DNA from: Emcibacter sp.
Lineage (GTDB): Bacteria; Pseudomonadota; Alphaproteobacteria; Sphingomonadales; Emcibacteraceae
Direction: 5' to 3'
Assembly (NCBI GenBank): GCA_021774785.1
Contig: JAJFIQ010000026.1
Location: 62,001 to 126,000, forward strand
DNA: 64,000 bases
Shown: piece after piece, positions 12,103 through 16,668 of the stretch
How positions within the stretch are numbered: position 1 is the stretch's first letter
Layout of the letters: each line of letters opens with the position of its first letter
Made by a program: the position numbers and the translations under genes
Notes under the pieces: model-generated
Seen by the model: only the letters and a program-made list of their open reading frames with translations
Told to the model about the DNA's origin: nothing
The model's database searches: none

Positions 12103-14049
12103 ATGAGTGATCAAATGAATAAAAGTGCCAATGTCGCCCTAACCCTGCCCGATGGCAGTGTCCGTACCTATCCGGGTCCGGTGACCGGCAGCATTTTGGC
12201 CGCTGATATAGGGCCGGGACTAACCAAGGCCGCTATCGCCATCGTGGTCAATGGTGACCAATGGGACTTGAGCCGGGAAATAGAACAAAATTCAGACGTT
12301 GCCATCATAACCAACCGGGATGAGGCGGCTCTGGAAATTCTGCGTCATGATGCCGCCCATATTCTTGCCGAAGCGGTAAAAGAACTTTACCCTGAAGTTC
12401 AGGTCACCATCGGCCCCGCCATTGACAATGGCTTTTATTATGATTTTGCCCGTGACATTCCCTTCACCACAGACGACCTGGCCATCATCGAAAAACGCAT
12501 GGTGGAAATCATTGAACGCGATGAAGACATCATCCGCAGTGAAATGGACCGGAATGACGCGGTTAAATTTTTCCACAATATGGGCGAAGATTACAAAGCT
12601 GAGCTAATCGCCGCCATTCCAGAGGGCCAGGCCATCACCCTGTACAAACAGGGCGATTTCATTGACCTGTGCCGGGGGCCGCATCTGCCCAGCACCGGAA
12701 AGCTGGGTAAGGATTGCTTCAAGCTGATGAAAGTGGCCGGTGCCTATTGGCGCGGCGACAGCAATAATGAAATGCTACAACGAATTTATGGCACCGCCTG
12801 GCGCACCAAGAAAGAACTGAAAGCCTATCTGATCCGTCTGGAAGAAGCCGAAAAGCGCGACCACAGGAAACTGGGCAAGCAGATGAAGCTCTTTCATTTT
12901 CAGGAAGAAGCCGCCGGCATGCCCTTCTGGCATCCCAATGGCTGGACCATATATCAGGAAATTGAGGCCTACATCCGCCGCATACAAAAAAATTATAGCT
13001 ATCAGGAAATCAAAACGCCGCAGCTTGTGGACCGTATCCTGTGGGAAAAATCAGGCCATGCCGATAAATTCCATGAACATATGTATACCACCGAATCCGA
13101 CAATCGGACTTTTGCCCTGAAACCCATGAATTGCCCTTGCCATGTGCAGGTGTTCAATCAGGGAATTGTCAGTTATCGCGACCTGCCCTTACGCATGGCG
13201 GAATTTGGCTCCTGCCACCGCTATGAGCCGTCCGGCGCGTTGCACGGATTAATGAGGGTACGGAGCTTCGTGCAGGATGACGCCCATATCTTCTGTACAG
13301 AAGAACAGATAACAGACGAATGTATCACCTTCTGTAAGATGCTGCTGGAGGTTTATAAGGATTTCGGCTTTGAAGATGTGAAGGTTAAATTTTCTGACCG
13401 TCCGGATGTGCGCGCGGGAAATGATAATGTCTGGGATAAAGCAGAAGCCGCCCTGATCGCTGCGGTGGACAGTGCAGGCCTTGATTATACGCTGAACCCC
13501 GGCGAAGGTGCCTTTTACGGGCCAAAACTGGAATTTGTTTTGACCGACGCCATAGGGCGCGATTGGCAATGTGGTACATTTCAGGTGGACTATGTTCTGC
13601 CCGAAAGGCTGGATGCCCAATATGTCGGCTCTGACAATGACAAACATCGCCCTGTCATGCTACATCGAGCAATTCTGGGGTCATTTGAACGCTTCATCGG
13701 TATCCTGATTGAGGAACATGCCGGACGATTCCCAATGTGGCTTGCACCGACACAAGTGGTTGTCACGGGCATTACATCAGATCAGGACGACCATGTGCGT
13801 AGCGTGTATAAGCAGCTAATAGCCGCAGGGCTTCGTGCTGAAATGGATCTGCGCAGCGAGAAGATAAATTATAAGATTCGCGAACATTCCCACGCCAAGA
13901 CTCCAGCCATTTATGTGGTTGGCGCGCGGGAGGCCGAGGAAAATACCGTAACTGTGCGCCGTTTGGGGTCAAAACAACAGAGAACTCTCGATTTGAACGC
14001 TGCAATTAATGATCTGAAGGCTGAATCACTGGCTCCAGACCAAAGATAG
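12103..14049 (+). CDS. thrS: Threonyl-tRNA synthetase
   Basis: A 648-residue class II synthetase charging tRNA-Thr. In order: TGS domain (about 1-70), editing/SAD domain with HDAAH at 82-86 and CRGPHLP, catalytic core with [44 protein letters not shown] and [19 protein letters not shown], then the anticodon-binding C-terminal domain from about 545. Length is typical. infC follows after about 110 bases, the classical thrS-infC-rpmI-rplT-pheST order, interrupted here only by a gene on the other strand. Confidence 0.98.
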
Positions 14050-14162
14050 GTCAATGATCATTGCAATTTACAAATTTTTCAGTAATAAAGAGTAAAACTA
14101 CACCAACTTTAACAGCTAAGCGGAACTGAGCCGAAATATGGCTCCCCGCAGGAGGAAATTAA

Positions 14163-14699
14163 ATAGCCAGACGACCAATGCAGGGCCCCCCATCCAAAAA
14201 AGGATTACGGGTTAATGATGATATCACCGAAGATAAAATCAGGTTAATTGATGATAGCGGGGAGAATCATGGAACAGTGGATCTTGAAAAGGGTCTGACC
14301 ATGGCAAAAAGTGCAGGGCTGGATCTTGTTGAGATTTCCCCCAATGCCGAACCCCCCGTGTGTAAAATTCTGGACTATGGCAGATTCCGTTATGCTGCCC
14401 AGAAGAAGGCCAGCCTAGCCAAAAAGAAACAAAAGACCGTCGAGGTAAAAGAAATCAAACTTCGTCCCGGCATTGAAAAGCATGACTATGATGTAAAAAT
14501 GCGCGCTGTGGATAAATTTCTGACCCAAGGCGACAAAGTCAAAATCACATTGCGTTTCCGGGGTCGGGAAATGGCCCATCAAGAACTGGGCATGGATATT
14601 TTAAAACGGGTCGAAGCCGACTTTCTGGAACAGGCCAAGGTGGAACAGGCCCCGAAAACGGAAGGCCGCCAGATAATCATGATACTTTCGGCCAAATAA
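14163..14699 (+). CDS. infC: Translation initiation factor IF-3, apparent AUA start
   Basis: IF-3 checks start codons and keeps 30S subunits free. The body is clear: RVNDDI, the N-domain ending [19 protein letters not shown], the Lys-rich linker, and the C-domain with [18 protein letters not shown]. The first ATG (14178) has no ribosome site nearby. An AGGAGG at 14150-14155 lies seven bases before the in-frame ATA at 14163, directly after a TAA at 14160. Starting there adds ARRP, giving [13 protein letters not shown], like the basic N-termini of other alphaproteobacterial IF-3. infC is known to use rare starts such as AUU for self-regulation. Gene 178 codons. Confidence 0.93.
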
Positions 14700-14737
14700 T
14701 TTTACGAGTCGGCCCACAAATAAATTAGAATGATTTT

Positions 14738-14791
14738 AAAAAGCCCCCTAAGTTTAACGCTCATAGCTCGTGTTGATTTAGGGGCTTTTTT
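14738..14791 (+). terminator. Terminator after infC
   Basis: A long hairpin with outer stem AAAAAGCCCC(C)TAA / TTAGGGGCTTTTT (one bulged C) and inner stem TTAACGC / GTGTTGA is followed by a T-run. It ends the thrS-infC transcript. Confidence 0.8.
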
Positions 14792-14801
14792 AAGGTATAA
14801 T
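14773..14801 (+). promoter_or_regulatory. Sigma70-type promoter for a candidate small RNA
   Basis: TTGATT (14773-14778), a 17-base spacer, and a consensus TATAAT (14796-14801). The -35 lies inside the right arm of the infC terminator. A second TATAAT occurs at 14809-14814. No gene follows on this strand before the terminator at 14888. Confidence 0.55.
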
Positions 14802-14807
14802 GCTGAC

Positions 14808-14922
14808 ATATAATGTGCACCCAATGGTAAGCACATCTTGGTACGGTGAGAAATAACAGCTGAATTTTCCAACGTGACCAGAGCAAGAACCCGTCAGAGA
14901 CTATGTGTCCGGCGGGTTTTCT
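14808..14922 (+). ncRNA. Candidate small RNA between infC and the TraB-like gene
   Basis: A region of about 115 bases begins about six bases after a near-consensus promoter and ends with a hairpin AACCCGTC / GGCGGGTT (14888-14918) followed by TTTTCTTC. It holds no open frame with a ribosome site. I do not recognise it as 4.5S, 6S or tmRNA. The hairpin could alternatively serve only as a convergent terminator for the TraB-like gene. Confidence 0.4.
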
Positions 14923-15831
14923 TCATTGTATTTTGTCAACTTGGTAGCCTTTGTCACGCAGCATCCTGACAATGCCGTCCGGCCCCACCAGATGAGCAGC
15001 CCCGACAACAATAAAAATCGTCTTGTCGCCATTAATATGGGCTTCGATCGCTGGTAACCAATTCTTATTTCGGTCAACCAACAAAGCCTGATACATGGCC
15101 TGATGGGTAGCCATATCATCAATCATGGTTTTTGATAACACGTCCGAATCGCCCGATGCCCATGCCTTAAGATAACTGTTGATATAGCTTTTGAAATCCT
15201 CAAGCTTGTCCAGCGTATCCGTTAACATGGCTGATTGAACAGATAATGGATGTTTCATCAGAGCATTCATGGAATCCTGTGGTGTTTCAAGGCCAGATAT
15301 GGCCATATTTTCTTTTCCCGCCAAGACTTCTAGATATTTATCCACGCCGGAACTGGGGTCCATGCCGGTTGACATAATAGAGATGACAGAGATTTGAAGA
15401 CCCAGAAACCATGGCTTCATCTTTCGTGTCGCCGCCTCATCCATGCCCATCAGTTTTTTGGCCTGTTCCAGTATCTTGTCATAATAGACTCTATCCAGAT
15501 AATTCTGCAAATTATCATCCGCCGCAAAGAAAGCATTTTTCATTACCGTCGCCTGTAAGGCTGCCGTGGCCTCCGATGTCATTTTCGCTTCCATCACCAA
15601 TTCTTCTGAACTGTCAAAAGACTGGCTGATAATGCCATCAAACCACTGATAATTCTTCGGCAGTAGATGAAAAGAGCCAAGCAGATAAACTTTGCCCTGA
15701 CCTTTTTTGACCTGCCACAGGGCCGGACTGGCATTTACCACATCTGTTTCGGCTGCCCTGAGTGGGCCAGACAGGGTCACAACACCAAAAAACAGGATGG
15801 TAAAAAGACGCAAACTTATACTAAAAAACAT
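14923..15831 (-). CDS. TraB/GumN family protein
   Basis: A 302-residue protein with a Sec signal peptide (about 1-26). It has the two family motifs: GSFHLLP near residue 52 and GAAHLVGPDGIVRMLRDKGYQV near the C-terminus, the conserved GxxH pair of TraB/PrgY/GumN/TIKI proteins, some of which are metalloproteases. A conserved Glu in LVMEAK and GLETPQDS fits the family. It is probably periplasmic or surface-linked, with unknown substrate. It sits on the minus strand within the otherwise plus-strand translation gene block. Confidence 0.88.
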   Translation of the reverse strand: MFFSISLRLFTILFFGVVTLSGPLRAAETDVVNASPALWQVKKGQGKVYLLGSFHLLPKNYQWFDGIISQSFDSSEELVMEAKMTSEATAALQATVMKNAFFAADDNLQNYLDRVYYDKILEQAKKLMGMDEAATRKMKPWFLGLQISVISIMSTGMDPSSGVDKYLEVLAGKENMAISGLETPQDSMNALMKHPLSVQSAMLTDTLDKLEDFKSYINSYLKAWASGDSDVLSKTMIDDMATHQAMYQALLVDRNKNWLPAIEAHINGDKTIFIVVGAAHLVGPDGIVRMLRDKGYQVDKIQ

Positions 15832-15934
15832 GTGAATTCCTTTGATCGAAACCTGATAAAAATTCCTTTTACAAAAGTTAGGTTTTAATCATGTTAACAA
15901 CAAGGCAAATTTTAATAAATACACTTAGTGTCTG

Positions 15935-16096
15935 TTGACAATTAAAAGCCGTTAAATCCACTTGCAATCCCTGATGAAGAGGGTTATACACCTCAACTTC
16001 ATTGGGTGGTATGGCTAATGTAAGGGCATGCCTCATCACCCGGAAAGCTTGTCACAGGCAACTGCGACATAATATTTAAGTAAAAGGAAAAGCTAA
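15935..16096 (+). promoter_or_regulatory. rpmI-rplT leader with stem-loops
   Basis: A TTGACA at 15935-15940 may be a -35 box, but no good -10 is seen at normal spacing. The leader holds the hairpin CCCT/AGGG (15969-15983) and a larger one, GGGTG/CACCC (16004-16008 with 16037-16041) enclosing GGTATG/CATGCC. In other bacteria L20 binds such leaders to repress this operon; that role here is inferred. Confidence 0.35.
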
Positions 16097-16294
16097 ATGC
16101 CCAAGATGAAAACCAAAAGTAGTGCCAAAAAGCGCTTCAAAATCACCGCTACGGGAAAAGTACGCTCATCACAGGCTGGTAAACAGCATGGTATGATCAA
16201 GCGCACCAACAAACAGCTCCGCAACCAACGCGGAACCACCATTCTGTCTGATCAGGATGCGCGGATCGTCAAAAAATACATGCCTTACGGTTGA
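16097..16294 (+). CDS. rpmI: 50S ribosomal protein L35
   Basis: A 65-residue basic protein matching L35 from end to end: [22 protein letters not shown], then [18 protein letters not shown] and the terminal VKKYMPYG. It is a late-binding component of the large ribosomal subunit. AAAGGAAAAG lies just before the ATG. rplT follows 14 bases later, the standard rpmI-rplT operon. A structured leader of about 150 bases precedes it. Confidence 0.98.
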
Positions 16295-16308
16295 TTTAGG
16301 AAAAGAAA

Positions 16309-16668
16309 ATGGCACATGTTAAAAGAGGCGTGACATCTCACGCACGTCACAAAAAAGTTTTAAAACTGGCAAAAGGTTATCGCGGTCGCCGTAAAAACAC
16401 GATCAGGATTGCCATGCAGGCTGTTGAAAAAGCCGGCCAATATGCATACCGCGATCGGAAAGTTCGCAAAAGAACATTCCGCGCATTGTGGATTCAACGC
16501 ATTAATGCGGCAGCTCGTATCAACGATATGACCTACTCACGATTTATGAACGGCCTGAAACTCGCAGGCATCGAACTTGACCGTAAAGTTCTGGCTGATC
16601 TGGCCGTTCGCGAACCGGAAGCTTTCAAAGCAATTGCTGATCAGGCACAGGCAGCGTTAAACGCTTAA
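16309..16668 (+). CDS. rplT: 50S ribosomal protein L20
   Basis: A 119-residue protein with the L20 hallmarks: [30 protein letters not shown], a long basic helix that binds 23S rRNA, and the globular [16 protein letters not shown] region. L20 is essential for early 50S assembly and in several bacteria also binds its own mRNA leader to control the operon. It is followed by a strong terminator at 16704, so pheST is transcribed separately or by read-through. Confidence 0.98.

Follow-up and report, generated by a model that had tools for sequence, protein, structure and literature searches.

The window analysed here, a stretch of 64,000 nucleotides of an Emcibacter sp. genome, carries on its forward strand an infC gene for translation initiation factor IF-3 (IF3) at 14163..14699, comprising 178 codons counted from an ATA triplet and followed by TAA. 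The gene was identified by domain matches: its product matches both IF3_N and IF3_C and scores 233.3 bits against TIGR00168 (cut-off 60), as a full-length IF3 does. No other IF3 match at E ≤ 0.001 occurs in the genome of 3.5 Mb, and the closest named records belong to a Sphingomonadales bacterium (88% identity), Emcibacter sp. (87%) and a Kordiimonadaceae bacterium (76%). The upstream gene at 12103..14049, also on the forward strand, is a putative thrS, assigned from resemblance and from the gene order in E. coli. A consensus scan of the forward strand found no promoter in the thrS-infC interval, and the infC leader gave no Rfam match at the gathering score, so no known leader RNA was recognised there.

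Downstream, infC ends at 14699 and an rpmI-like ORF opens only at 16097; the infC-rpmI-rplT adjacency of the E. coli operon does not occur in the window. Within the region 14699-16668, a reversed ORF of 302 amino acids (14923-15831) parts infC from the rpmI- and rplT-like ORFs; we take its product to resemble TraB/GumN proteins. Just 3' of infC, at 14740-14791, a terminator-like inverted repeat with a long loop, AAAGCCCC...TTAGGGGCTTTTTT, was noticed by eye; the terminator scan that was used does not permit a loop of this length. The repeat suggests that infC is the last gene of its transcript.

The stop-to-stop frame of infC opens at 14163, where the ATA (14163..14165) directly follows an in-frame TAA (14160..14162) that closes the frame on the 5' side. 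A Shine-Dalgarno sequence, AGGAGG, lies at 14150..14155 on the same strand, 7 bases before the ATA and 22 bases before the first in-frame ATG (14178..14180). A sequence-only reading of this locus had proposed that infC starts at AUA, and its coordinates for all four elements proved correct when the window was re-read; the N-terminal residues that it gave are those that follow from an ATA start. It had also predicted that default gene callers would misplace the start, and the mechanical ORF list does open infC at the ATG at 14178. We also considered a small ORF further 5' that would terminate at this TAA, and discarded it: by eye, the frame runs back to a TGA at 14127 without any ATG, GTG or TTG.

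As a bare motif, AGGAGG-N7-ATA (AGGAGGNNNNNNNATA) occurs at chance level: it was found 10 times in the genome (3.5 Mb) and 11 times in the reversed control. Since the motif is not above chance, the reality of the site rests on conservation. The genus set comprised 16 genomes including the window's own and yielded 14 sequences (the window's own and 13 others); genome G004 gave no infC match, and a broken copy in G010 (L021), whose leader is identical to that of L009, was left out. The AGGAGG, a stop codon directly 5' of the start (TAG in L010, TAA elsewhere) and the ATA itself, every base of it, are kept in all 14 genus members, which bears out the proposed AUA start. Of the six other positions occupied by isoleucine in all 14 members, five use more than one Ile codon, and across the infC genes of the genus just 18 of 170 third positions do not vary. 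All eight other members of the same family that were read also have ATA at the start. The AUH codon stands at proper Shine-Dalgarno spacing and is conserved where canonical starts are not. The sequence-only reading had named a lack of conservation upstream of the ATG at 14178 as the observation that would speak against it; among the relatives, that segment is conserved. The basic N-terminus expected from an ATA start was likewise recovered, residues 2-5 being basic and proline-ended across the genus (ARRP, VKRP, AKRP, AKKP).

We also observed that codons 3 to 5 (AGA, CGA, CCA) keep their third bases almost or entirely unchanged across the genus, and by eye AGA-CC recurs in many loci of the class sample described below. 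These conserved third positions may reflect selection for a weakly structured start.

Translation could instead begin at the ATG at 14178 (MQGPPSKKG...), with the ATA forming part of the leader. This ATG is the first canonical codon in frame, it precedes both IF3 domains, and a counterpart is present in 11 of the 14 genus members. However, it is 22 bases away from the AGGAGG, and in L011, L012 and L013 it is replaced by ATA or GTA, with no ATG, GTG or TTG anywhere from the stop before the start up to the IF3 N-domain. A canonical start is similarly lacking between the assigned start and the N-domain in 71 of 114 assigned loci of the class sample, and a start at this ATG leaves the codon-level conservation of the ATA unexplained. 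We rejected the ATG at 14178 as the infC start because three of 14 genus members do not have it, and we regard this alternative as very improbable; additional initiation at this codon, retained in 11 of 14 members, may nevertheless occur. The position of the start, taken alone, is almost certainly the AUA at 14163, as judged by comparative sequence analysis.

To place the AUA start in a wider context, 144 alphaproteobacterial genomes were searched, of which 143 had a match and 124 loci were read; the 19 class genomes not included were four further genomes from families already sampled and the 15 with the lowest scores and the greatest divergence. Starts were assigned by a rule requiring a Shine-Dalgarno sequence of at least 4 bases at a spacing of 3-10. 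The rule assigned 114 of the 124 loci and left 10 unassigned, giving ATA 79, ATC 23, ATT 7, ATG 2, TTG 2 and GTG 1, so that AUH codons made up 109 of the 114 starts. When one of the two ATG loci (L161) was re-read by eye, an ATA was found at the homologous place behind GGAG, which brings the counts to ATA 80 and ATG 1 and the apparent canonical starts to 4 of 114. AUA is thus the commonest predicted infC start among the sampled Alphaproteobacteria. The four apparently canonical loci, L208 (ATG), L215 (TTG), L216 (GTG) and L232 (TTG), are possible natural losses of the AUH start. In many Rhizobiales loci, inspection by eye showed the homologous site to hold ATT with an Arg codon after it.

The preference for ATA at the start differs from codon usage inside the same genes, where ATA accounts for 99 of 1179 internal Ile codons. 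In class infC genes with GC3 ≥ 0.8, ATA makes up 9 of 301 internal Ile codons versus 22 of 31 starts. In 51 of the 124 class loci, the stretch from the preceding stop to the IF3 N-domain contains no ATG, GTG or TTG. A stop directly before the assigned start, as found throughout the genus, occurs in just 13 of 114 class loci. A tree of IF3 required a minimum of 24 changes among the codons ATA, ATC and ATT, together with four changes to canonical codons; this count is rough, coming from a quick tree of a short protein with ATA 80 and ATG 1 as input.

A phylum sample was read with a near-identical rule that allowed starts nearer the N-domain. Among the best-scoring 30 of 60 genomes with a match, nine of which belong to the same class and several of which overlap the class sample, the starts were ATT 11, ATC 10, ATA 8 and GTG 1. 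The rule used for the class sample returned canonical codons where these are expected. In controls covering every fetched locus that carries the gene in question, 67 of 77 distinct rpmI loci received a start, which was ATG in 66; for rplT, 62 of 67 distinct loci received one, which was ATG in 60. The remaining 10 rpmI and 5 rplT loci went unassigned. Applied to E. coli infC, a near-identical rule returned ATT at the annotated RefSeq start. The sequence-only reading had described AUA as a solution parallel to the AUU of E. coli; the AUA start stands, and it is better described as belonging to a set of three codons (AUU, AUC, AUA) that interchange across the Pseudomonadota loci read.

These observations are most consistent with an infC gene that starts at the AUA at 14163 and is subject to feedback by its own product; we put the probability of the two taken together at roughly 0.8. 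According to this model, the AGGAGG at 14150-14155 would direct initiation at the AUA, yielding an IF3 of 178 residues whose first residue would be fMet from the initiator tRNA. The AUA would form a third-base mismatch with the initiator anticodon CAU, and because of this mismatch IF3 on the 30S subunit would be expected to destabilise initiation there; in vitro work, as far as the accessible text goes, describes weak third-base pairs as excluded by IF3. High levels of IF3 would lower infC translation and low levels would raise it, forming a homeostatic loop like that acting on the AUU of E. coli. By analogy with that system, we infer IF3 autoregulation in Emcibacter. The third base of the infC start varies among A, C and U but is scarcely ever G (ATG in 1 of 114 class loci), even though A to G is a transition. 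Selection for a discriminated start would be expected to produce such a pattern, and a site free to vary would not.

The AUA could also be the true start and yet set only a low, constant rate of IF3 synthesis, with no IF3-dependent feedback. Rare starts do reduce yield generally: according to PMC13009471, S. aureus reporters of genes other than infC (cvfC1, ccpN, citZ) with AUU or AUA starts gave about 10% of the AUG level in poor medium. A low constant rate could, however, be obtained equally well with GUG, UUG or a weak Shine-Dalgarno sequence, whereas at the infC start AUA, AUC and AUU interchange and AUG, GUG and UUG are rare. We therefore consider a constant-rate role without feedback unlikely.

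The leader contains a predicted RNA hairpin at 14120..14149 on the forward strand (GCGG...GAGCC-loop-GGCTC...CCGC), the 3' arm of which abuts the Shine-Dalgarno sequence. A predicted stem ending 0 nt before the AGGAGG was obtained in all 14 genus members and also in L015, L022, L024 and L025, where the sequences differ; by eye, L012 keeps both stems with letters changed on both sides. Such a hairpin might act as a second control element besides the start codon, either as a protein-binding site or as a clamp aiding the weak AUA, and this would be compatible with the proposed feedback at the AUA. Elsewhere in the window, a comparable stem was found at 2 of 19 other Shine-Dalgarno-led ORFs. An arm-swap test was used because MAFFT left some 5' stem arms unaligned. 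In the genus the two arms tend to vary together: the sequences' own arms gave a mean of −10.0 kcal/mol versus −8.7 kcal/mol for swapped arms, and 348 of 20000 permutations were as good; this result is suggestive only, because the halves come from each sequence's own fold and relatedness is ignored.

Several observations argue against a control function of the hairpin. Folding reached z ≤ −2 in just 5 of the 14 genus leaders, and the window leader alone gave z = −0.68. The hairpin is absent in some other genera of the family: no abutting stem was predicted in L017-L020 and L023, and L014 shows no more than a −1.1 kcal/mol stem located two bases off the Shine-Dalgarno sequence, although all of these loci keep the ATA; the leader, as noted, matches no Rfam family at the gathering score. 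Across the class, a stem of some kind ends no more than 2 nt from the Shine-Dalgarno sequence in 33 of 113 loci, with a mean z of −0.35, which indicates that stems of this kind are common by chance; the hairpin was accordingly rejected as a class-wide feature. From the folding predictions, the hairpin at 14120-14149 is a plausible second leader element within the genus, but we hold a true control role for it to be possible rather than probable.

A broader interpretation would be that lineage-specific selection acts on the third base of the infC start codon, with AUA mostly kept in Alphaproteobacteria as the set-point of the IF3 loop and the hairpin added in the genus to tune the weak codon. 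We consider this combination doubtful.

The AUA start has practical and comparative consequences. It corrects the start of Emcibacter infC, which a caller limited to ATG, GTG and TTG places five codons too late, and a like misplacement would be expected in many alphaproteobacterial genomes. The near-absence of AUG (1 of 114) despite at least 24 third-base changes provides comparative evidence for a selected, discriminated start well beyond E. coli. The switches among AUA, AUC and AUU offer a natural series for studying the influence of the third base on the set-point of the proposed loop.

A non-AUG start of infC is a known kind of feature, and a rule with exceptions, a few of the loci read here looking canonical. 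The infC gene of B. subtilis is reported with an AUU start, and red-algal plastid infC with a GTG start. Excerpts of PMC5472188 describe an ATC start for Streptomyces infC, which according to the authors is misannotated in most Streptomyces; this is likewise an AUH start, but with AUC and in an actinobacterium. The Xanthomonas gene resembles the present case in that a canonical start is unavailable and the annotation was placed at a downstream ATG; it differs in having ATT and peptide evidence, peptides having been detected 5' of the annotated ATG, as stated in the accessible part of PMC5559785. None of the matches listed from open PMC papers concerns AUA as the usual infC start of Alphaproteobacteria, and a survey on arXiv (2020) of genes with a preference for non-AUG starts may cover it.

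AUA itself is not a new solution for infC. As the available sections of PMC13009471 report, retapamulin profiling (Ribo-Ret) identified an AUA start for S. aureus infC, and the authors deem E. coli-like autoregulation likely. The gene and start codon are identical to those in Emcibacter, but S. aureus belongs to a distant phylum and its start was demonstrated by Ribo-Ret, whereas the Emcibacter start is predicted from sequence comparison. What is added here is the class-wide preference for AUA, the near-absence of AUG and the genus-level hairpin abutting the Shine-Dalgarno sequence; the finding is true but of an ordinary kind, usefully extended across the class.

The best-studied counterpart is E. 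coli infC, for which an AUU start is attributed to Butler et al. 1987 and Brombach and Pon 1987 in the citing text, and for which the consulted portion of PMC5472188 describes a feedback loop acting on the AUU start and lost on its change to AUG. Both systems combine an IF3 gene, an AUH start behind a Shine-Dalgarno sequence and a third-base mismatch. They differ in the codon, AUU in E. coli and AUA in Emcibacter, in the leader, and in gene order, infC, rpmI and rplT being adjacent in E. coli whereas the reversed ORF separates infC from the rpmI- and rplT-like ORFs in the Emcibacter window.
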